Below, piece after piece: positions 25,503 to 36,253 of a DNA stretch of 36,975 nucleotides (positions within the stretch are counted from its first letter, which is position 1; the number at the start of each line of letters is the position of its first letter). Location: assembly GCA_016871615.1 (NCBI GenBank), contig VHCX01000032.1:1-36975 (forward strand), given 5' to 3'. This DNA is from Verrucomicrobiota bacterium (GTDB lineage: Bacteria; Verrucomicrobiota; Verrucomicrobiia; Limisphaerales; UBA9464). A program made the translations under genes and the position numbers. Under the pieces are notes generated by a model. That model had not been told where the DNA came from. It ran no database searches and saw only the letters and a list, made by a program, of their open reading frames with translations.

Positions 25503-27059
25503 ATGAGTCCCACCCCGCGACTCCGGGCCGTCCCGGCCACCCTCCTGGCCCTCGGCGCGGTGGCCTGCTTCCATCTGGCCTTCCTGGTCCCGGCCCTGGG
25601 GTGGCTCGTGGTCGGATACCTCGGCGGCCTTTGGGAACTCCGGCGTCTGCCCACGCCACGGCAGGCGTTCTACTCGGGCGTGGCGATCGGTCTGGGAGTG
25701 TACGTGCCGCAGATGTCCTTCCTCTGGAGCATCTTCCACGGCGCCGCGCTTCCCCTGTGGGCGATCCTGGCGCTCTTCCACGGAGCCTTCCTGCTGATGC
25801 TGAACCGGGTCGGGGTCCGCTGGGGAGACCGGTGGGCCGCATGGCTCATGCCCGTGCTCTGGTGCGGCATCGAGCACCTCCGCAGCGAGGTCTGGTGGCT
25901 GCGCTTCGCCTGGTTCACGGCCGGGTCGTGCTGGCCGGTCTCGCTGGAACCGAAGGCGCTGCAACGCCTCGGCGTGTATGGCCTGGGCTTCGTGCTGTCG
26001 CTCGTCGCCGCCCAAGGCCTGGGATGGCTCCGGGAGACCGACCCACGCCGGCGGCGCCGGTCCGCCCTCGGCCTGGTGGCCGGCGTTGCCGTGCTCCTGG
26101 GGGCCGCCCTTTGGCCACCCCACCGACCGGGCGGATCCGGGGATCGTCGGGTGCCGGTGGTGGGTCTCCAGCTCGAGTTCCCCTCGCTTCCCGACGTGCT
26201 TGAGGGACTCGACGGCCTGGTTCGGTCCCATCCGGAGGCCGGGTTGCTCATGCTCAGCGAGTACACGCTGGAGGGCCCGCCCCCGAGGGCGCTCAAAGAC
26301 TGGTGCCGGCGGAACCGCAAATGGCTGGTGGTCGGGGGCAAGGAGCCCGTCGTGGATCCCGCCCCGGGGACGCCTCCCGCGGCGGCCGCCGGTCCCGAGC
26401 CCGCCACCGGCACCCCCACCGCGACGCCGTCGCTGCTGTCGGCGCCCAGCCTGCCCTGGAAGCGATCCAGCCCCGGCAAGGAGCGCTTCCACAACACGGC
26501 CTTCGTGCTCGGTCCGGACGGCGGGATCGCCTTCCGGCAGGCCAAGTCGAGGCCCATCCAGTTCTTCGACGACGGGGAGCCGGCGCCCTCGCAGGCGGTC
26601 TGGGAATCCCCCTGGGGTCGCCTGGGCATCGCCATCTGCTACGACGTGAGCTACCGGCAGGTCATGGACGGACTGATCCGTCAGGGAGCCGTCGGCCTGC
26701 TCGTCCCCACCATGGACCTCGAGACCTGGGGAGCCCACGAGCATGGCCTCAACGCCCGGATGGCGGTGATCCGGGCGGCTGAATACGGCGTGCCGATGTT
26801 CCGGGTCGCCAGCTCGGGCATCTCGCAGCTCATCGACCGGACCGGCCGCCAAACGGCCACCGCCCCCTTCCCCGGACAGGGCGAGGTCTTGGCTGGCACC
26901 CTCGTGCTGCCCGCCTCGGGCGGGGCGGTCCCCCCGGATGCCTGGCTCGCCCCCGCCTGCACCTGGGTCACCCTCGCGTTGCCGCTGGTGCTGCTGGCCG
27001 GTCGGTGGCGGGAGCGCAACCCCCACCCCCCTGCCCCGGCCGCGAGCAGGGCAGCCTAG
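25503..27059 (+). CDS. Divergent Lnt-like membrane nitrilase-fold protein
   Basis: The 518-residue protein from ATG 25503 has a hydrophobic N-terminal half resembling Lnt (helices through ~residue 225, including LMPVLWCGIEHLRSE). A carbon-nitrogen-hydrolase domain follows, with the triad Glu253 (LMLSEYTLEG), Lys348 (RQAKSRPIQFF) and Cys379 (AICYDVSYR), and then a C-terminal membrane helix. It differs from the clear Lnt at 17288-19093 in three ways. The Lys-Cys gap is 31 residues, as in soluble nitrilases, rather than ~51. The Glu-Lys segment carries a ~40-residue Pro/Ala/Thr-rich insert. The WPE motif is replaced by LSE. It may acylate lipoproteins or another amine, or act as a membrane amidase. 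The stop overlaps the next gene on the other strand by 4 bases. Confidence 0.8.
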   Translation: MSPTPRLRAVPATLLALGAVACFHLAFLVPALGWLVVGYLGGLWELRRLPTPRQAFYSGVAIGLGVYVPQMSFLWSIFHGAALPLWAILALFHGAFLLMLNRVGVRWGDRWAAWLMPVLWCGIEHLRSEVWWLRFAWFTAGSCWPVSLEPKALQRLGVYGLGFVLSLVAAQGLGWLRETDPRRRRRSALGLVAGVAVLLGAALWPPHRPGGSGDRRVPVVGLQLEFPSLPDVLEGLDGLVRSHPEAGLLMLSEYTLEGPPPRALKDWCRRNRKWLVVGGKEPVVDPAPGTPPAAAAGPEPATGTPTATPSLLSAPSLPWKRSSPGKERFHNTAFVLGPDGGIAFRQAKSRPIQFFDDGEPAPSQAVWESPWGRLGIAICYDVSYRQVMDGLIRQGAVGLLVPTMDLETWGAHEHGLNARMAVIRAAEYGVPMFRVASSGISQLIDRTGRQTATAPFPGQGEVLAGTLVLPASGGAVPPDAWLAPACTWVTLALPLVLLAGRWRERNPHPPAPAASRAA

Positions 27060-27511
27060 TTGATGCGCGACCGGATCATCGGATCGATGGCCCCGATGTC
27101 TCCACTCGAGACATCCTGCACCAGGATGAGGAAGTCGAAGAGGATGTCGTCGTCGGCCTTGAGGTAGTCATCGGTGACCGCGAGGTTGCTCGCTCCCTCG
27201 TTCCGGCTGAGTGACACCGCGGGGAATTCATCGACCCCCACCCCGTCGGCGGAGGGCAGGAATGCCAGGCCGAGGAGGGTGTATCGGGCATCCGGCAGCG
27301 TGAAATTCAGCACGACCTGGCCCGAAAACCCCTCGGGAACGCTCACGAGGATCACCTCGCCGTTCATGGTGAAGATGCCGGGCGGCTGGCTCTTTGGCGG
27401 TGGCTGGAGGGCCAGATCCGCCTCGGTGCACGGAGTAGACTGGACGTTGCCGGACATCGGCACGAATTGGATGCCGGAGATGAGGATGGTGGCGGCGTAG
27501 GTGTCGTTCAT
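27056..27511 (-). CDS. Small beta-rich protein of unknown function
   Basis: I do not recognise this 151-residue protein with certainty. It has no signal peptide or membrane helix. It starts with alternating hydrophobic strands (TYAATILISGIQFVPMSG), has a Pro-rich turn (PPPKSQPPG), and ends with FDFLILVQDVSSGDIGAIDPMIRSRIN, where an 'xIDPxIxN' ending follows a strand. That ending recalls small beta-sandwich proteins of the AidA/PixA inclusion-body kind, a weak resemblance from memory only. It lies 36 bases downstream of the broken kinase-TPR gene on the same strand, so it is probably the last gene of the sigma-factor cluster. The reading frame is intact and codon use is similar to neighbours. 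It overlaps the convergent Lnt-like gene by 4 bases. Confidence 0.7.
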   Translation of the reverse strand: MNDTYAATILISGIQFVPMSGNVQSTPCTEADLALQPPPKSQPPGIFTMNGEVILVSVPEGFSGQVVLNFTLPDARYTLLGLAFLPSADGVGVDEFPAVSLSRNEGASNLAVTDDYLKADDDILFDFLILVQDVSSGDIGAIDPMIRSRIN

Positions 27512-27547
27512 GAGCGTGATGTGGTTTGGTTTCCGTCGGAAAAATGT

Positions 27548-29433
27548 TCAGGGGTCGAGCCCGAGGGCCGCTGCGATCCTGGGATCGCGGGCGCGGAACC
27601 CGAAGGCCTTCAGCCGATCGATCAAAACCTGGGCCGAACGGGATTCCCCCTCGACCCGGAGGGCCTCGGCCAACGGCACCAGGATGCGCCAATCGTTCGG
27701 TGAGACCGCAATGCGGCGCGTGAGCGCGTCGATCAACTGCCGCACCCGGGAGCGGGACGGGTCGGGCCGACCGGCGGCGGCCTCCTGGCGTCGGGAGAAC
27801 CGCAGCACACGGGCCGACTCCCAAAGCAGCCGGGCGTCCGAGCCTTGCCGGGCGGTGAGCCGCCCGAGGATGGACTCCGCCTGGGAGGCCAGGCGCGCCG
27901 CCTCGGCGGGGGCATCGGCGACCGCAAGCTCGGCCTCGAGCCGCAGGGCCCTCGCGAGATCCGCGCCGGCCTCGACCGACCTCGGCTCCGCGGCCACCAT
28001 GGCGGAGAGCTGCTCCACCGCCGGGCGGAGGATGGCTCCCGCGGCATCGGTCCTGCCGTCGGCGATGAGCCACTCGGCCCGGGACAGGGCCACGGTCAAG
28101 GCGAAGCTTCTCCAGTACTGGTTGGCGGGATCCGAGACCACCAGCGCATCGAGCTGGGACTGGGCGAGCTCGAGACCCTCGGAGGCCTCCGAGGCACGGC
28201 CCGACAACCCGAGCGCCAGCGCGACCATCGCCCGGTACCGTGCCGAGCGGAAGCGGAGCGCAGGATCCTAGGTATCGACGGCCCAAAGCGCCTCGACCCG
28301 CGCCAGGCAGCCCTGGCGTCTCTCGAGGGCGCTGGCATAGAGCCCGTCGGCCTCGTCCACCCTCGAGAGCCAGATGCCGGACTCGTCCAGTTCGGAGGCC
28401 AGATCCAGGTCCGCAGGCCGGGCGGCGACCGCGGAGGCGAGTTGCTCCTGCTTGGCCAGGAACCCCGCACGGGCAGCCGCCAGGTTCCCCCAGTCGAACT
28501 CCAGGACAGCCAGATTGTGGACGCCGTACAGGCGCTCCGAGGTGGCCCGTTCGGTCGGCCTCTCGAGGCCGGCCAGTGCCACGGCCGAATCGCGGTACCG
28601 GCTCAGCCAGGCGTGGGCGAGGCCGAGGTTGCCCTGTTCGCGGGCCACCACACCCAGCCAGTATTCGGTCTGGGCCCTCTCGAAGAGGAAGTCGGCGTTT
28701 CGGGGCTGACGTTCGACCAGGTTGGTTGCCCGACGGTGGGCCGACTCGAAGGAGGCGAGGGCGTCGGAATGGCGGCTCTGGTCGAGCCGGATCTCGCCGA
28801 TCTGGACGAGGGTCCGGCAATGCCGCGACAACACCGTGTCGGTCAGGTCGACCGGATCAAGCGCGGCGAAGTGGACCATGGCCTTGTCGCCGACGGCATC
28901 GAGCAGGTCCAGGCGGCCGATGCGGCCGAGTCCGGCCCGGAAATCCCCGAGCATGAACCCGAGCAGGTCCTCGGCCTGCGCCTGCCGGCGCCGGGCGTCG
29001 TCCAGCGCACGTCCCTCGGCCAGGCGGGCCGCGACCGCGGCGTCGCGGTCGGAGACGGCCTGCCGTTCGGCCCGGGCGGCGCGCGACCACCTGCTCGGTG
29101 TCGAGGCCCTGCCGGATCACCTTCAGCGCCACGAGCCGGCGGATCGGCTCATCCTGCCCGGCCAGATAGACGACACCACACCCCCCGGAGCCGATCCTGC
29201 GGACCAGCCGGTAACGCCCGATCATCTCGCCGGCGGCCCGCTCGGGCAGGGGCTCGGGCCTCGAACGCCGGAACGCCGGCGTGCCGAGGAAACTGCCCGG
29301 GGCCTCGAGACCGCGCAGCAGGGCCTCGACACGGGCCCGCTGGTCCGGGTCGCCGACACAGGCACGCTCGAGATGGGCGGGACGTTCGGCGGCCGGCAGT
29401 TCGGCAGCCTCGGCGAAGATCTCGTCGTCCCAT
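27548..29433 (-). pseudogene. Broken Ser/Thr protein kinase-TPR gene (three lesions, kinase core deleted)
   Basis: The remains match the kinase-TPR fusions that follow sig-70_X6 sigma factors in these phyla. At 29433 an ATG is followed by one extra G. Read one base over, the sequence is family-like (DDEIFAEAAELPAAERPAHL...), then the kinase start MIGRYRLVRRIGSGGCGVVYLAG and VALKVIRQGLDTEQVVAR. At about 29078-29086 the frame shifts into the family's post-kinase coiled region (AERQAVSDRDAA... QAEDLLGFMLGDF). The rest of the kinase domain, including the HRD and DFG motifs, is missing. The TPR part runs on to 28271, meets an in-frame TAG (28268-28270), resumes with DPALRFRSARYRAM and ends normally at 27548. 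Fragments 28268-28954 and 27548-28228 are each open. A separate TPR-only product from ATG 28954 is possible but unproven. The sigma gene ends 52 bases upstream. Confidence 0.88.
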
Positions 29434-29485
29434 TTGATCGATCCGGATCGTCGTCACCGCCCGGGTTCCTCCGGGCCGGGACGGA

Positions 29486-30064
29486 TCAGCCGTTCCTGAG
29501 CCGCTGCACCTCGTTGAAGAGCCACGCCCGGGCGTAGGACCAGTCGCGCTTGGCCGTCCGGTGGGCGATGCCGATGGGGTCGGCGGCCTCCTCCAGCGTG
29601 AGACCGACGAAGTACTTGAGCTTTACCAGCTCGGCCTTGCGCGGGTCGTGCGCCGCGAGGCCATCGAGGGCTTCGTTCATCAGGATCAATTCGTCGTTGT
29701 CGGCCTCCTGGACCGGCATCTCGAAACCCGTGGCATCGGCACTGACCCGCTCCAGGCGTCCTCCGTGCCGGATGGCCCGCTTGCGCCGGGCGTTGTCAAC
29801 GAGGATTCGGCGCATGCTCTCGGCGGCGGCCGCGAAGAAATGGGAGCGGTTGCGCCACTGCGGTTGCTGGTCGCCTCCCAGGCGGAGCCAGGCCTCGTGC
29901 ACCAGGGCCGTCGGCGCCAGCGTTTGGCCCGGGTTCTCCCGGGACATCCTGACGGCGGCGAGCCGCCGAAGTTCGCCATAGACCACCTCGAGAAGCCAGT
30001 CGGCGGCCCCCGGGTTGTCAGGCCCGATCTGCTCCAGGATGGAGGGGATGTCCGTCTCGTTCAT
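29486..30064 (-). CDS. ECF-type RNA polymerase sigma factor (sig-70_X6 / SigH-like subfamily)
   Basis: The 192-residue protein shows the subfamily's region 2 (LLEVVYGELRRLAAVRM, then TLAPTALVHEAWLRLG and RSHFFAAAAESMRRILVDNARR). Region 4 follows with LVKLKYFVGLTLEEAAD and a helix-turn-helix ending in TAKRDWSYARAWL. It directs RNA polymerase to a specific promoter class. Such factors have no classical anti-sigma gene beside them and are usually followed by a Ser/Thr kinase-TPR gene, as here, where the kinase is broken. The start ATG overlaps the stop of the 407-residue gene (ATGA, 30061-30064), so its translation is likely coupled. Region 4 has ADPIGIAHRT where Gly-Ile-Ser is usual, but it looks intact. 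Confidence 0.92.
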   Translation of the reverse strand: MNETDIPSILEQIGPDNPGAADWLLEVVYGELRRLAAVRMSRENPGQTLAPTALVHEAWLRLGGDQQPQWRNRSHFFAAAAESMRRILVDNARRKRAIRHGGRLERVSADATGFEMPVQEADNDELILMNEALDGLAAHDPRKAELVKLKYFVGLTLEEAADPIGIAHRTAKRDWSYARAWLFNEVQRLRNG

Positions 30065-31284
30065 GAGGCAGGCCCAGGAACCGGGGTCGTCGACCCACGG
30101 GTGAGGGATCGCTTCGCCGGCGGAGCGGGGGTGGCAGATCCCGACCGGTGATCCAACGCCAACCCATCCGGGCACTGCGGGAGCGCGACCGGACCGGCAG
30201 GGACCTCGGCGGGGAGGTCTCCCGGGAATCCATCGTCTGGAGCAGACCACCCGGCGGCCGGGTCCATGGAACCTCCACGAGACCGGGTGACCGGCGGCCC
30301 CGAGGCCCCGGACTCCGCGCCAGCCGCCCGAAGCATGAGCTGGGCGGCCAAAATCGCCGTGCCCGTGGTGGCCACCCGGGCCCAGGCCCCGCCGAGCGTG
30401 CCGAACGCCGAGCCCACCCGCCGGGCCAGGACCGCCCAGGCCCAGACCCCGACATGGATGGTCCCGTCGGCCGGGAGATCGGGTTCCACGGCGGGATCGG
30501 AAACGCGGGCCGGACCGGCTCCGGGGAAGGCGGCGGCGGGGCCTCCGCACTCGAAGTGTCCGCGTGCGTCGACCCACAGGAGCCCTCCCAGGTCCTTCAA
30601 CGGATGACCCACGAGGTTGTATTCCGCGACGAGCCGGCCTGAACGGTCGGTCCGGAGGTCCAACGCCTCGATCCTTGCGGGGAATTCCCCCTCCAACGCG
30701 ATCGGACCCCGGGGAACCAGGTGGACGCTCCGACAGGCACCCGAGAGGTCCAGGTCGGCCAGCAGGCACCGTTTCCCCAGGTACAGGGAACGCCCCGGAC
30801 GGGTCGCCTCCGGCAATCCGCAGGAGCCATCCACGGCCGGCTCGCCAACCGACCGGGTGGATTCCAGGCGCAGCAAGCCGCCAACGGCAACCGATTCGAG
30901 GTGCTGGCGGAGCATCCCGCCCAGCACGGCCACCCATCCTCCACCCATCGGGCCACCGGGAACCTCCAGCCCGAAGACCGCCTTGGCCCCGGAAAGATCG
31001 ACAGCGACCTCAGGGGCGGATCCGGATCCATTCCCGGGGCCATGAAACCGGGTCGGTGCGGTGATGTGCAACCGGGTCCCGGGCGGGATGCGGATGGGAT
31101 GTCCCAGGAGCGTGAAGACGCCCTCCATCGGCAGGGTGACCCGGGAATCGACGAAGTCCTCCGACCACCCCCCGGCAGGAGTCCGGAAGCATGGCGAACC
31201 CAGCGACCTGATGAATTCGAGGCCGCCCAGACGGAGCCGGAGTTCACGACCGGCCAAGATGCGAGCCTCCATGGCCGTGGTCAT
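30061..31284 (-). CDS. Unrecognised 407-residue protein coupled to the ECF sigma gene
   Basis: No family recognised. It starts at ATG 31284, overlapping the stop of the upstream 126-residue gene by ATGA, and its own stop overlaps the sigma start by ATGA. A second in-frame ATG at 31272 is an alternative start. Residues 1-270 are rich in short beta strands (VTLPMEGVFTLLGHPIRIPPG, AVFGLEVPGG, CLLADLDLSG, LVAEYNLVGHPL). A Pro-rich stretch follows, then a 35-residue hydrophobic/amphipathic helix (about 300-335; TTGTAILAAQLML), and the last ~75 residues are disordered, rich in Pro, Ser, Gly and Ala. There is no signal peptide. The one-nucleotide-scale packing against a sigma gene makes a regulatory or linked structural role likely (inference only). 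Antisense and alternative-frame reading are less plausible, because both gene overlaps depend on this frame. Confidence 0.65.
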   Translation of the reverse strand: MTTAMEARILAGRELRLRLGGLEFIRSLGSPCFRTPAGGWSEDFVDSRVTLPMEGVFTLLGHPIRIPPGTRLHITAPTRFHGPGNGSGSAPEVAVDLSGAKAVFGLEVPGGPMGGGWVAVLGGMLRQHLESVAVGGLLRLESTRSVGEPAVDGSCGLPEATRPGRSLYLGKRCLLADLDLSGACRSVHLVPRGPIALEGEFPARIEALDLRTDRSGRLVAEYNLVGHPLKDLGGLLWVDARGHFECGGPAAAFPGAGPARVSDPAVEPDLPADGTIHVGVWAWAVLARRVGSAFGTLGGAWARVATTGTAILAAQLMLRAAGAESGASGPPVTRSRGGSMDPAAGWSAPDDGFPGDLPAEVPAGPVALPQCPDGLALDHRSGSATPAPPAKRSLTRGSTTPVPGPAS

Positions 31285-31661
31285 GTGGCGGCCGGTTGGC
31301 GGGACAGCCCGTCGGCCAGCGCCCGGATACCGGTCCGCAGGCCCTGGGGCAACCCGATCGGGGCCTCGTCCAGCGCACGCAGGGGATCGGTCACGAACAG
31401 GCGCGCGTTGCCCGGCGAGGCGGAAATCCATCCCAGGAGCGCGGCCTCGTAGGGGACCAGACGGCTCAGCATCGCTTCGATGCGGTCCACTTCGGAGGGC
31501 GCCCCGCTGGGCCGGCGGCGCATGGCCCTCGGGGCGGAAGCGTGGAAACACACGCGGACCATCGGTCGGCCGCCCGGCGAGCCGGGGGGCTCGATCGGGA
31601 TGGCGACGGGGGACGGGGGTGTCGCGACCGTCGGGGTCGTCGGAGGGGAGGACGCCTTCAT
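31281..31661 (-). CDS. Unrecognised 126-residue protein, first gene of the sigma cluster
   Basis: Starting at ATG 31661 it has a ~35-residue Pro/Ser/Thr/Ala-rich head, a short basic stretch (RAMRRRPSG) and a C-terminal ~70-residue helical part (VDRIEAMLSRLVPYEAALLGW, then FVTDPLRALDEAPIGLP and GLRTGIRALADGLSRQ). The F-x-x-DP-x-x-AL...G-(I/L)-x-LP pattern has the look of helical leader or adaptor domains, but I cannot name a family. It overlaps the 407-residue gene by ATGA. A GGAAC-N16-GTC element ends 9 bases before its start. An in-frame start further upstream (31757) is possible but would pass through that element. Codon use and GC are as in the neighbours. Confidence 0.6.
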   Translation of the reverse strand: MKASSPPTTPTVATPPSPVAIPIEPPGSPGGRPMVRVCFHASAPRAMRRRPSGAPSEVDRIEAMLSRLVPYEAALLGWISASPGNARLFVTDPLRALDEAPIGLPQGLRTGIRALADGLSRQPAAT

Positions 31662-31670
31662 GGGATCTCG

Positions 31671-31696
31671 GACTCCGGTCGAACGGTGCGTTCCAA
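31671..31696 (-). promoter_or_regulatory. Candidate ECF-type promoter of the sigma-factor cluster
   Basis: On the minus strand TTGGAAC (31690-31696) is followed by a 16-base spacer and GTC (31671-31673), which ends 9 bases before the ATG of the first cluster gene. GGAAC-N16/17-GTC is the general shape of ECF sigma promoters (known for group IV factors). No housekeeping -35/-10 pair is evident here. It would fit self-activation by the sigma factor encoded in the same operon (inference). Confidence 0.45.
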
Positions 31697-31861
31697 GACG
31701 AACCGGGGCCCATCCTCTCCAGCGGATTTTCCCGGCCAAAGGGGCCACCCCATCCACTCCTGCCTAGCGGAGGCAGCTTCGCAGGGCTCGATCTCCCCCC
31801 GGGGCGGAAGAAGCCGTCCGCGCACCACAGCGGGCGACGACCCCGGCCCTGTGCCCTCGGC

Positions 31862-32659
31862 CTACTGGTTCAGGCGCGGCTCGTTGTCGGCGTTCCAGCG
31901 CGCCCGCATGGCCGGGTCGCGCGCGACGGCACGGTCCTGGCGGATGAACTCGGCATGGCCGTCGCAGAACATGAAGTTCGCGCCGCCGCCTTGGCTGGAC
32001 TTGATCTTGCCGCTGCCCGGCTTCGGGGCACCCGAGCCCCCGTGACGGCTGCTGGGCCACTCCGACTGCTCGGGCCCCTTGGGATCGCCATCGGCAGGGT
32101 CGATGGCGGTGTCCCAGACCGCATCCGAGCGGCTGTCGGCCAGGCAGATCATGTCGGAGGGCGATTTCACGAAGGACTCGACCGGCTCGATGTGCCACGG
32201 CTCGGAGCCGCCGCCGATGTCACCGCCCAGCCCCTGGTAGGGCTTGGTGAATTCCGAGACACCGCCCCAGTCGTTGTAGCCGTAGGTGAATCCGGTGCTG
32301 GGGGTGAGGATGAGCGGTTGGCCGGTCTTGGCGTCGTTGGTCCAGTAGAACTTCGGGCTCTCGGTGGGGCAGTTCCACACCGTGAGGTTGGAGGCGCAGT
32401 AGGGCAGGAGCCGCGGCGGGTAGATGATGCGGCCGGAGGTCACGAGGTAGTGGCCGGGATACCGGTGGTGGTCCTGGACGTATTGCACCAGCGAAAGGCC
32501 GATCTGGCGCAGATTGTTCATGCAGCGCGTCTGGTTGGCCCGCGACTTGGCCTTGGCCAGGGCCGGCAGGAGCATGCCGGCGAGGATGGCGATGATGGCG
32601 ATGACCACCAGCAACTCGATGAGGGTGAAGGCGGCCCGGGAACGCGGCAAAGGCTTCAT
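31862..32659 (-). CDS. Type II secretion-like pseudopilin with H-X9-DG-type C-terminus
   Basis: The 265-residue protein has a short basic leader and the prepilin site AA/FTLIEL (Phe11 becomes residue +1, Glu at +5). The hydrophobic helix [21 protein letters not shown] follows, and then the globular part seen in the many pseudopilins of Verrucomicrobiota ([16 protein letters not shown]). Near the C-terminus SSRHGG and [12 protein letters not shown] form the H...DG signature of this paralogous family. The residue before the cut is Ala rather than Gly, which is common in this phylum. Role: exported, assembled or free in the periplasm through prepilin peptidase; the specific function is unknown, and no secretion genes are adjacent. 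A candidate promoter lies 21 bases upstream. Confidence 0.9.
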
Positions 32660-32680
32660 GGTGCAATCGGGGACGCCCCC

Positions 32681-32708
32681 ATCAAATCCATCGCCAGCAA
32701 GGAGTCAA
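32681..32708 (-). promoter_or_regulatory. Candidate promoter of the pseudopilin gene
   Basis: Minus-strand TTGACT (32703-32708), a 16-base spacer and TTTGAT (32681-32686), which ends 21 bases before the ATG at 32659. The -35 is a near-perfect housekeeping match; the -10 matches four of six. Confidence 0.4.
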
Positions 32709-32767
32709 TCCCGGCATTCGGGCCACCGCAGGCCAACTGCGGCGACCGGACGCCTCGTGCGAAAAGC

Positions 32768-32798
32768 TTCGCGGTGCCCTGTCGGGGTCTGCTAGGGT
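32768..32798 (+). promoter_or_regulatory. Candidate promoter of the DEAD-box helicase gene
   Basis: TTCGCG (32768-32773), a 19-base spacer and TAGGGT (32793-32798), which ends 12 bases before the ATG at 32811. The -10 is identical to that proposed before the beta-propeller gene at 19103. The spacer is long, so the -35 is doubtful. No cold-box or long structured leader is visible. Confidence 0.35.
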
Positions 32799-32810
32799 TT
32801 CTCCCTGAGC

Positions 32811-35051
32811 ATGAGCACGAAACTGTTTTCCGAACTCGGGCTGTCGGAAGAGATCCTCAAGGCCGTCCAGCGCCTCGGGTTCGAACAAGCCTCCCCCATC
32901 CAGGCCGAGGCCATCCCGGTGCTGATGAGCGGCCGGGACATCGTGGGGCAATCGCAGACCGGCTCGGGCAAGACCGCCGCCTTCGCGATTCCGGCCATTG
33001 AGCGGATGGATCCCAAGGCCGCCGGCCCCCAGGTGCTCATCCTGTGCCCCACCCGCGAGCTGGCCATCCAGGTCAGCGAGGAGGTGCACAAGCTGGCGTT
33101 CTTCCAGCGCGGCGTGAAGCCCCTGCCCATCTACGGCGGGCAGAGCTACGAGCGCCAGTTCGCCGGGCTGCGCGCCGGGGCCAATGTCATCATCGGCACC
33201 CCGGGCCGCATCATCGACCACATCGACCGCAAGACCCTGCAGCTGGGCGGCATCAAGACGGTCATCCTCGACGAGGCCGACGAGATGCTCAACATGGGCT
33301 TCCGCGACGACATCGAGAAGATCCTCTCCTCCACGCCGGCGGAGCGGCAGACGGTGATGTTCTCCGCGACGGTCCCCAGGCCCATCGAGGAGCTGATCGC
33401 GCGCTACACGAGGCAACCGGTGCGCGTGCGCATCGAGGCCAAGGCCCTGACCGTGCCCACCATCGAGCAGGTGTACTTCGAGGTGGACCGGCGCTGGAAG
33501 TTCGAGGCCCTCACGCGCCTCATCGACCTGCACGACGTGACCTTGGGCATCATCTTCGCCAACACCCAGCGGGTGGTCGACGAACTGACCGAGGCGCTGG
33601 TCGGTGCGGGCTACACGGCCGACTGCATCCATGGAGGCATGCCTCAGGCCTTGAGGGACCGGGTGATGGGCAAGTTCCGCTCGGGCGGCTTGCGCTTCCT
33701 CGTGGCCACCGACGTCGCCGCGCGCGGCATCGACGTGGACGACATCCAGGTGGTGTTCAACTTCGACCTACCCTACGACGCCGAGGACTACGTCCACCGC
33801 ATCGGGCGCACCGGCCGGGCCGGCCGCAGCGGCATGGGCATCTCCTTCGCCAGCGGGCGCGAGGTGTTCCTCATCCGCGACATCGAGCGCTTCACCCGCC
33901 AGCGGATGCGCCGCGGCGAGATCCCGAGCCTGGGCGAGATCGAGGACGCCCGGCGCGACCAGTTCCTGTGCAGCCTGCGCGAGACGCTCCAGGCCGGCGA
34001 TTTCCGGCATTACGACCACGTGATCGAGGCGCTGCTGGAGGAAGGCTTCGACTCGCTCGACGTCGCGAGTGCCGCCATCCACCGCCTGATCGGCAAACCG
34101 GGCGAGGAGACCCCCAAGGCGGCAAAGACGCCCGGCCCGTCCAAGCCGGCCAAGGCCGCCAAGGCCCCGCCAACCGGGGCGATGGCGACGCCTCCGCCCA
34201 CCTCCCCGGCATCGGTCGCCCCAGCCATGCGGGCGACGCCGGCCCCATTGCCGGCCCCATGGTCGCCACCACCGAAGGTGGCCCAGGCACCGACCCGGGC
34301 GACCGCTCCTGCGGTTCCGGCCGCGGCCGAACCGGCGCCGACAGCACCGCCCGCCCCCGTGGTGCTCCCCCCGGCGTCCGCCACGTCAGGAACCACGCTT
34401 GGAACCACGCCGGCATCCAAGGCGGTCGAACCCCGTCCCTTCGAACCCCGGCGTCTCGAACCCGGAGCCGAGGCGGCGGTCCGCGCCGGACGCGCCCGTC
34501 ATGACCTGCCGCGCACGCTCGCCACGCAACCCCCGACGCCGGTCCCGTTCGTGCCGCCGGCGGTGCCCAAGACGGGCGCCGTGATCCCCGCCGCACCGGC
34601 GGCACCGGCCACGACGCCCGCCACGACGGCACCGGCGGGGGAAACCGGGAAGGCCACGCCGGCCGCCAGGCCCGCGAAGATTCTCCGGCCCGCCAGGATC
34701 CCGGCGACCGCGCCGGCCGACCCCGCGCCGGCCGCGCCGTCCCTGCCGACGCCCCGCCCCAACGAGGCCGAGGCCGTGGATTCCAAGTCGGCGCCACCGC
34801 CGCCGCCGTCTGGCGCCGTGGGCACCACGCGGCTGTGGATCGGCGCCGGCGAGGAGCATGGGGCCACCGCGGACTCGTTGCGCACCTTCATCCTCGGCAC
34901 CACGGGCGAACCGGCGGCGTCGCTCGGTGCGATCGACCTCCGTGCGCGGCACGCCTTCGTGGACGTGCCCGGCGACCGGGCCGCCTCCTTCGTCTCGCGC
35001 CTGAAACGGGCCGATTTCGCCGGCAAACGGCTCAAGGCCAAGGTCGCCTGA
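32811..35051 (+). CDS. DEAD-box ATP-dependent RNA helicase with DbpA-type RNA-binding domain
   Basis: The 746-residue protein has all helicase motifs in order: Q motif (FEQASPIQ), Walker A SQTGSGKT with Lys54, PTRELA, TPGR, DEAD at 154-157, SAT at 185-187, IIFANT, ATDVAARGID and HRIGRTGRAGR (about 329-339). After a helical segment (345-430), a low-complexity tail of ~235 residues rich in Ala, Pro and Thr leads to a ~75-residue C-terminal domain (TTRLWIGAGEEHGATADSLRT... GKRLKAKVA) of the DbpA/CsdA RNA-binding type. It probably remodels ribosomal or structured RNA; CsdA/DeaD-like proteins do this in ribosome assembly and at low temperature. Most homologues have a much shorter linker. Intact, and starts at ATG 32811. 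Confidence 0.94.
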   Translation: MSTKLFSELGLSEEILKAVQRLGFEQASPIQAEAIPVLMSGRDIVGQSQTGSGKTAAFAIPAIERMDPKAAGPQVLILCPTRELAIQVSEEVHKLAFFQRGVKPLPIYGGQSYERQFAGLRAGANVIIGTPGRIIDHIDRKTLQLGGIKTVILDEADEMLNMGFRDDIEKILSSTPAERQTVMFSATVPRPIEELIARYTRQPVRVRIEAKALTVPTIEQVYFEVDRRWKFEALTRLIDLHDVTLGIIFANTQRVVDELTEALVGAGYTADCIHGGMPQALRDRVMGKFRSGGLRFLVATDVAARGIDVDDIQVVFNFDLPYDAEDYVHRIGRTGRAGRSGMGISFASGREVFLIRDIERFTRQRMRRGEIPSLGEIEDARRDQFLCSLRETLQAGDFRHYDHVIEALLEEGFDSLDVASAAIHRLIGKPGEETPKAAKTPGPSKPAKAAKAPPTGAMATPPPTSPASVAPAMRATPAPLPAPWSPPPKVAQAPTRATAPAVPAAAEPAPTAPPAPVVLPPASATSGTTLGTTPASKAVEPRPFEPRRLEPGAEAAVRAGRARHDLPRTLATQPPTPVPFVPPAVPKTGAVIPAAPAAPATTPATTAPAGETGKATPAARPAKILRPARIPATAPADPAPAAPSLPTPRPNEAEAVDSKSAPPPPPSGAVGTTRLWIGAGEEHGATADSLRTFILGTTGEPAASLGAIDLRARHAFVDVPGDRAASFVSRLKRADFAGKRLKAKVA

Positions 35052-35108
35052 CCCGCCGCCGTCTCCACGCCCGGCGGCGACGGCACCGTCCAAGGGCGGG
35101 CTCGGGGC

Positions 35109-35137
35109 TTGGGCCCTCGGCCCGCCTGCCGTAGCCT
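35109..35137 (+). promoter_or_regulatory. Candidate promoter of mtnA (leaderless type)
   Basis: TTGGGC (35109-35114), a 17-base spacer and TAGCCT (35132-35137), which ends 9 bases before the ATG at 35147. This is the best -35/-10 pair among the short-leader promoters in the window. No SAM or other riboswitch-like fold is seen in the 95 bases before the gene. Confidence 0.5.
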
Positions 35138-35146
35138 CCCGCCCGC

Positions 35147-36253
35147 ATGAACGTCACGCTTCGGGGCAGGAGCCGGCCCCACCGCACCGTCGGATTCGAC
35201 CCGATCTCCAACGAGGTCGTGCTCATCGAGCAACGCCTCCTCCCGCATGAGTTCCGGCTGGTGAGGACCCGCGATTTCCGCCAGACGGCCGGGGCCATCA
35301 CCGACATGGTCGTGCGGGGAGCCGGTGCGATCGGCGCGACGGCCGCCTACGGGCTGGCCCAGGGAGCCCGGGCCTTCCGGGGCACCCGACTCGAGCGCTT
35401 CGAGGCGCATGTCGAGACGGTGTACCAGACCCTGAGGCATGCCCGGCCCACCGCCGTCGATCCGGTCAACGCCATGGACGCCATCCGCGCGGAGATGGCG
35501 CTTGGGGAGACGGTGTCCGAGCGACAGGACCTCGCCTTCGCTTCGGCCTCGCGATTCGCCGAGGAGGACGTGGCGCATTGCCGCGCCATCGGCGCGCACG
35601 GCGCGCCGTTGATCCGGGAGGGCATGCGGGTATTGACGCACTGCAACGCCGGATGGCTCGCCTTCGTGGACATCGGCACGGCCACGGCCCCGATCTATGC
35701 CGCGCAGGCGGCCGGGCGGAAGTTCCATGTGTACTGCGATGAGACCCGGCCCCGCTGCCAGGGAGCCTCGCTCACCGCCTGGGAATTGGCCCAGCAGGGC
35801 GTGTCACACCAGGTCATCGCCGACTCGGCGGCCGGCTTCCTCATGAGCCGGGGTGAGATCGACATGGTGATCGTGGGCAGCGACCGGGTGCTGGGCAGGA
35901 CCGGCGAGGTCGCCAACAAGATCGGCACCTACACCAAGGCGGTGCTCGCGCACCGGCATGGCATCCCCTTTTACGTGGCGATCCCGCTGTCGACCATCGA
36001 CTGGGAGCTGAACTCCGGGCTCGCGATCCCGATCGAGGACCGCTCCGGCGACGAGGTGCTGGGGGCCTGGGGCACGCTGCCCGGCCGCGGCGGGAAGCCG
36101 GGGCGGCGCGCCTACGTGCGCATCGCCAACCCGGGAAGCACCGCCCGCAACCCAGGCTTCGACGTCACCCCGCCGGAGCTGATCACGGGCATCATCACGC
36201 CCCACGGCATCCTCAAGCCCAAGGCGTTGGGCCGGTTGCGTGGACGTCGGTGA
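35147..36253 (+). CDS. mtnA: S-methyl-5-thioribose-1-phosphate isomerase
   Basis: The 368-residue protein belongs to the MtnA/eIF2B-like family. The catalytic pair is present: Cys166 in THCNAGWLA and Asp246 in IVGSDRV. VVRGAGAIGATAAYG, DETRPRCQGASLTAWEL and ANKIGTYTKAVLAHRHGIPFYVA are signature blocks. It converts methylthioribose-1-phosphate to methylthioribulose-1-phosphate in the methionine salvage pathway. Residue 170 is Trp where the CNAG block usually continues with Ala or Gly, and VRGAP is VRGAG; both are near the active site. No other salvage gene (mtnB, mtnC, mtnP) is in the window. The C-terminal ~25 residues are basic. It ends convergently, 58 bases from the next gene. Confidence 0.92.
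   Translation: MNVTLRGRSRPHRTVGFDPISNEVVLIEQRLLPHEFRLVRTRDFRQTAGAITDMVVRGAGAIGATAAYGLAQGARAFRGTRLERFEAHVETVYQTLRHARPTAVDPVNAMDAIRAEMALGETVSERQDLAFASASRFAEEDVAHCRAIGAHGAPLIREGMRVLTHCNAGWLAFVDIGTATAPIYAAQAAGRKFHVYCDETRPRCQGASLTAWELAQQGVSHQVIADSAAGFLMSRGEIDMVIVGSDRVLGRTGEVANKIGTYTKAVLAHRHGIPFYVAIPLSTIDWELNSGLAIPIEDRSGDEVLGAWGTLPGRGGKPGRRAYVRIANPGSTARNPGFDVTPPELITGIITPHGILKPKALGRLRGRR

Follow-up and report, generated by a model that had tools for sequence, protein, structure and literature searches.

In the available text of two reports, ECF43 sigma factors are described as having a conserved threonine and no acidic motif in region 2.2, and as being activated by a neighbouring Hanks-type kinase (PMC13147305, PMC8999054). 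Within the same available text, such switches are described from Vibrio parahaemolyticus, Xanthomonas citri and Hyphomonas neptunium (PMC8999054). Like EcfK-PknS of X. citri and EcfP-PknT of V. parahaemolyticus, as presented in those texts (PMC13147305, PMC8999054), the verrucomicrobial locus analyzed here encoded a sigma factor with an uncharged region-2.2 motif and a conserved threonine, next to a gene for a kinase that has one membrane stretch and whose C-terminal region gave weak TPR matches. It was unlike both pairs in that two orphan genes preceded the sigma factor gene through ATGA overlaps, a gene for an SO1698-like protein followed the kinase gene, and the kinase looked broken in the genome under study.

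The known part of this locus is an ECF43-kinase switch, and its new part is a set of genus-restricted companions, named hereafter by their lengths (126, 407 and 151 aa). The favored reading, to which a probability of about one half is given, is that of an accessory ECF43-kinase signalling operon, in which the 126-, 407- and 151-aa proteins would be outputs or accessories of the switch and not anti-sigma factors.

Gene set, junctions and genomic setting

All genes of the set lay on the reverse strand of the window (the whole stretch of DNA analyzed, 36,975 nucleotides), in the order 126-aa gene (31281-31661), 407-aa gene (30061-31284), gene for a 192-aa ECF43-type sigma factor (29486-30064), remnant of a Ser/Thr kinase-TM-TPR gene (27548-29438) and 151-aa gene (27056-27511). 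The preliminary description had delimited an operon at 29486-31661, made of the first three genes joined by two exact ATGA stop/start overlaps. Frames and overlaps were recovered (ATGA at 31281-31284 and 30061-30064, read from 31284 to 31281 and from 30064 to 30061), and the three genes were present at those limits, but the set was longer, the kinase and 151-aa genes downstream having been left out. The 407-aa frame stayed open further upstream, to an ATG at 31713, while homology with its relative in a second genome of the genus (G007) began at the ATG at 31284. The overlap between the 407-aa and sigma genes was also found in a third genome (G010), whereas in G007 the 126/407 and 407/sigma gaps were of 4 and 143 bp, respectively. 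ATGA junctions are therefore conserved only in part, and strict coupling of the 407-aa and sigma genes is not required, since 143 bp separate them in G007. No promoter was identified by a scan for the sigma-70 type.

The set was located between an Lnt-like gene and a prepilin-like gene, the latter adjoining a DEAD-box helicase gene (names assigned by eye). In the window the interval between the Lnt-like and helicase genes spanned 25503-35048. This interval varied within the genus, with an esterase-like gene (by eye) in G011, G003 and G018, as well as a PQQ-repeat-like gene in G011. Between the two flanking genes of these three genomes, where both were on one stretch, no gene of the set was found. 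A search of 16 stretches, 11 of which surrounded an Lnt-like or a prepilin-like gene, was also negative for genes of the set. A tree of the Lnt-like protein from 11 genomes did not fix the position of G007, so that gain, loss and transfer of the set could not be told apart.

The sigma factor matched TIGR02999 (Sig-70_X6) with 194.8 bits (cut-off 126.15) and PF07638 (Sigma70_ECF) with 173.6 bits (cut-off 21.1); we take the first of these models to correspond to ECF43. In region 2.2, the acidic DxxD was replaced by an uncharged QPTA or APTA, with threonine at the position of EcfK T51. The window protein displayed APTA (APTA-LVHE), in which Thr52 (codon at 29909-29911) is the equivalent of T51 as judged by motif. 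Threonine occupied this position in 29 of 30 aligned sequences, followed by alanine in 29 (aspartate in G007), and glutamine was found two residues before it in 27; a six-row sigma alignment whose L027 row fell outside the sigma frame was excluded from these counts. The APTD of G007 holds one acidic residue, as does the QATE given for EcfK in the available text.

A close relative of the sigma factor was encoded in 38 of the 50 genomes of the family, and a kinase homologue was found near the sigma gene at 17 of 23 loci (the three loci of the set and 20 chosen among sigma matches in the family). Five of the six other loci were cut by contig ends, and one (L058) had full flanks. The sigma factor had first been contrasted with kinase-linked members of its family. 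This contrast did not hold, as a Ser/Thr kinase gene adjoined the sigma gene in all three genomes, intact in G010, intact as far as the contig reaches in G007 and apparently broken in the window.

Distribution and constraint of the 126- and 407-aa proteins

At a GC content of about 71%, and with 55 open reading frames of at least 80 aa overlapping positions 26000-35500, open frames alone were poor evidence for genes. The 126- and 407-aa genes are regarded as real because of their relatives and of the selection acting on them. Among 59 related genomes, five gave a match to the 407-aa protein at E ≤0.01, three of them strong (the window genome, G000, along with G010 and G007) and two short and weak. 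Identity was 57% with G010, where the contig ends within the gene, and 42% with G007. The 407-aa protein was found in 3 of the 50 genomes of the family, and in 2 of the 28 more complete ones. In the order, 10 of 320 genomes matched at E ≤0.01, strongly in the same three only (at most five candidates per genome scored). Of 377 genomes sampled across the phylum, 3 matched, namely the window genome and two weak ones (at most four candidates per genome scored). Searches of the order and phylum were less sensitive than those of the 59 and 50 genomes. In the order, up to 13 candidates per genome were scored for the 126-aa protein and up to 12 for the 151-aa protein, and many genomes were incomplete.

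Weak matches to the 407-aa protein were set aside. Five, with E 3e-4 to 7e-3, came from one genus; the gene was read by eye as a ThrE-like membrane protein in L074 and L076, and the same reading was assumed for the remaining three, for which only the opposite strand was read. Those in G012, G044 (twice), G177, G354 and G552 were discarded on score and length.

The 126-aa protein, with a proline-rich N-terminus, matched strongly in the window genome and G007 (with the chosen thresholds, 6 of 59 and 6 of 320 genomes matched, those beyond these two weakly), with 42% identity between the two; matches at E 0.001-0.005 were discarded as weak. In G007, relatives of this protein stood in tandem as 93-aa (L003:681-959, just upstream) and 119-aa copies, an indication that this small gene duplicates. 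The gene order there was the 93-aa copy, then the 126, 407 and sigma genes and the start of the kinase gene up to the contig end; a different contig carried the TPR-encoding part of the kinase gene and, after it, the 151-aa gene. In G010, the order was the 407-aa gene (cut by the contig end), sigma, kinase and 151-aa genes.

Within the reach of these searches, the 126-407 pair was confined to a single genus (3 of 19 genomes); the set was seen in three genomes, all draft assemblies, one with an incomplete 407-aa gene. Conservation of the 126-407-sigma order, which the preliminary description had suggested as a check, was seen in G007, and for 407-sigma in G010, but did not extend across Verrucomicrobiota as far as the search of the order went: of its 320 genomes, with at most five candidates scored in each, only 3 gave strong 407-aa matches, and these belong to one genus. 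No relatives were found among viral contigs.

Window and G007 sequences of the 126-aa protein had in common the C-terminal motif LLxWxxxSPxNARLFVTDPLRALxxAxxGLP. The Asp-Pro pair D92-P93 (31383-31388) was also present in both G007 relatives. In the 407-aa protein, a segment GxIHVxxWxWxxLAxRxxSxFGTLGxAWxxVATxxA was conserved within residues 274-319. The best 20-residue blocks against G007 were 161-180 (13 of 20) and 121-140 and 281-300 (12 of 20 each). The latter block was also the best against G010 (17 of 20), whose copy is without the first half of the protein, and the tail from residue 321 was poorly conserved. An AlphaFold model of the 407-aa protein built from three sequences was not usable (mean pLDDT 36.8); at this low confidence its first half was beta-rich and residues 281-300 were helical.

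The preliminary description had recognized no family for either protein, and searches of Pfam, NCBIfam, PADLOC, PHROGs and PDB sequences agreed with it, returning no credible match. The best match of the 126-aa profile was a capsid VP3 (E 1.4), and a PHROG of unknown function was reached with the G007 relative (E 0.36); neither was credible. No anti-sigma family was matched by the 126- or 407-aa protein, and a diverged domain of this kind could be present.

Both frames are under purifying selection, the absence of which would have counted against the preliminary proposal. In alignments built in the true frame, which favours that frame, dN/dS was 0.48 for the 126-aa gene against G007, and 0.40 and 0.60 for the 407-aa gene against G007 and G010, respectively. 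Control frames gave 0.93-2.03 when shifted forward and 0.53-1.64 in reverse, one reverse frame of the 407-aa gene being low as well (0.53 vs 0.40 with G007, 0.65 vs 0.60 with G010). Column shuffles reached the true value in 0 of 200 cases for the 126-aa gene (G007) and in 0 of 200 (G007) and 1 of 200 (G010) for the 407-aa gene. Constraint was far stronger on the sigma factor (0.13 with G007, 0.11 with G010), and the 126- and 407-aa genes (0.40-0.60) thus evolved faster than the gene they precede.

An output or accessory role for these proteins is preferred over restraint of the sigma factor, since ECF43 factors reportedly stay inactive for want of a phosphate and not through an anti-sigma factor, and since the two proteins evolve faster than the sigma factor and displayed no anti-sigma domain. 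This role is drawn from position and evolutionary rate, and translational coupling would suit a regulator equally well. A less probable alternative is that one or both proteins regulate the sigma factor, as a new soluble anti-sigma factor or co-regulator co-translated with it at a fixed ratio. Such a role would fit the ATGA junctions of the window, the 407/sigma one being kept in G010, as well as residues 281-300 of the 407-aa protein, which are among its better conserved parts and are helical in the low-confidence model. It is weakened by the lack of an anti-sigma family match, by the absence of the 407/sigma junction from G007, and by the presence of the 407-aa protein in only 3 of 50 family genomes, as opposed to 38 of 50 for a close sigma factor.

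The kinase gene, intact in G010 and apparently broken in the window

The kinase of G010 matched Pkinase with 154.5 bits (residues 105-392 of the frame), gave a TPR match below the cut-off and displayed a single strong hydrophobic stretch (428-446), a layout that resembles the one reported for PknS. In the window copy, the interval from the upstream stop to the conserved N-terminus contained no ATG, GTG, TTG or CTG, and MKRDDEIF of G010 was replaced by IKWDDEIF, with ATC instead of ATG at 29436-29438. ATC is a rare start codon at best. The window copy was also devoid of about 915 bp and carried a frameshift, with loss of the membrane helix and of the greater part of the kinase domain. The deletion junction (29058-29103) lay between stretches that form imperfect direct repeats in G010. 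The window kinase looks like a pseudogene, which is likelier than a single assembly fault because there are two lesions. If it is dead, the intact 126-aa, 407-aa and sigma genes would need another cause, such as recent loss of the kinase, cross-talk from another kinase or an error in the consensus.

The absent start codon and the frameshifted deletion speak for another reading, in which the whole set would be a decaying remnant in the window genome, the kinase being already a pseudogene and the remainder persisting by chance. This is rather unlikely, since the 126-aa, 407-aa, sigma and 151-aa genes were all open, the sigma dN/dS between the window genome and G010 was 0.11, and the sigma factor had a single private residue at columns conserved to at least 70%, as compared with 2, 2, 4 and 1 in the four others examined.

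The 151-aa protein and a model for the operon

The 151-aa gene began 36 bp past the stop of the kinase frame in the window (36-40 bases in the three genomes), and its product, whose C-terminal end reads GAIDPMIRSRIN, had relatives of 151-156 aa in these genomes. Among 320 genomes of the order, strong matches came from three, the same ones as for the 407-aa protein (at most 12 candidates per genome scored). Weak matches in five genomes (E 1.6e-4 to 6.6e-4) were discarded. The gene in G002 was read by eye as a secreted Ig-like protein, and the other four were judged alike from common neighbours. In the true frame dN/dS was 0.18 (G007) and 0.42 (G010), with a low reverse frame at 0.43 and 0.62, respectively.

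The predicted structure (pLDDT 73, pTM 0.72) was a beta-sandwich whose nearest fold was SO1698 of Shewanella oneidensis (Foldseek E 3.5e-4; Z 9.6 over 114 residues, 3.2 A), with PixA (Z 9.3) and MakD (Z 9.2) tied with it within the stated error. A best Z of 7-8 is typical for models without clear relatives. SO1698 belongs to the DP-EP family (PF08985), the former DUF1888. Its PDB entries are titled aspartic peptidase and include D116A and P117A mutants. In the available text of one paper, a Shewanella sequence is called a self-cleaving endopeptidase, with a 2012 DUF1888 paper cited for it (PMC11655445). Asp143-Pro144 of the 151-aa protein was invariant in the three relatives. SO1698 chains ending at residue 116 aligned up to residue 144 of the model, so that the C-terminal Asp-Pro lies near D116 of SO1698, the two pairs being at most one residue apart. 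Identity with SO1698 was 10%, and self-cleavage of the 151-aa protein is a candidate property.

Pfam DP-EP matched the G007 protein alone, over nearly the whole profile (E 0.022, 15.6 bits, below the cut-off of 25), and no match was listed for the G010 or window protein. A search of the order with the same profile gave matches at E 0.007-0.036 in 6 of 320 genomes, all below the cut-off, and the three genomes with the set were not among them; the two best matches were FixH-like by eye, and no such sigma factor or kinase was present in the flanks examined for the six genomes. The G007 match is accordingly weak when taken alone, because FixH-like proteins score alike and the genomes with the set are missing among the six. 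The 151-aa protein is SO1698-like in its predicted fold and is not filed here as a DP-EP member. Its N-terminal half (about residues 4-76) showed a weak profile similarity to norovirus capsids (E 0.02-0.7), probably by chance. A pattern search for the C-terminal DP motif across the 23 loci gave nothing similar to the 151-aa protein outside the set.

Under the favored reading of an ECF43-kinase operon with its own outputs or accessories, and by analogy with characterised relatives, the sigma factor would be made in an inactive form. The kinase, whose TPR part would lie on the outer side of the inner membrane, would sense a signal and phosphorylate the sigma factor at T52, which would then bind RNA polymerase. 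The 126-, 407- and 151-aa proteins may be products or targets of this switch, the first two made at a fixed ratio as a cytosolic pair and the third possibly cutting itself at Asp143-Pro144. In the window genome the kinase looks broken, so that the switch has probably fallen silent or been given up recently.

A more elaborate version is improbable, namely a five-part system in which the phospho-activated sigma factor would control both the 126-407 pair and a self-cleaving Asp-Pro beta-sandwich that frees or swaps its last strand, thereby linking an outside kinase signal to the assembly of a protein structure. Hardly credible is the idea that the 126-aa protein is a peptide-precursor-like (NHLP-leader-like) protein with the 407-aa protein as partner or modifier, which draws on its tandem 93- and 119-aa copies in G007 and on the mere resemblance of its motif, in our view by eye, to the leader pattern FxxDPxxALxxAGxxLP. 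Against it, NCBIfam gave no NHLP match with the proteins of the window and of G007, no core-like C-terminus was seen by eye, and TIGR03793 had no match in any of the three genomes with the set, although 5 of 14 control genomes gave matches below the cut-off; an NHLP-type leader identity was rejected.

An operon that perhaps carries its own outputs would offer a compact test of what an ECF43 switch drives, in a family where 38 of 50 genomes encode a close sigma factor. The window genome, with a seemingly dead kinase and the rest of the set open, would be a natural experiment in this respect. Two proteins that have no known relatives, and a third that may cleave itself, would then be linked through one pathway.
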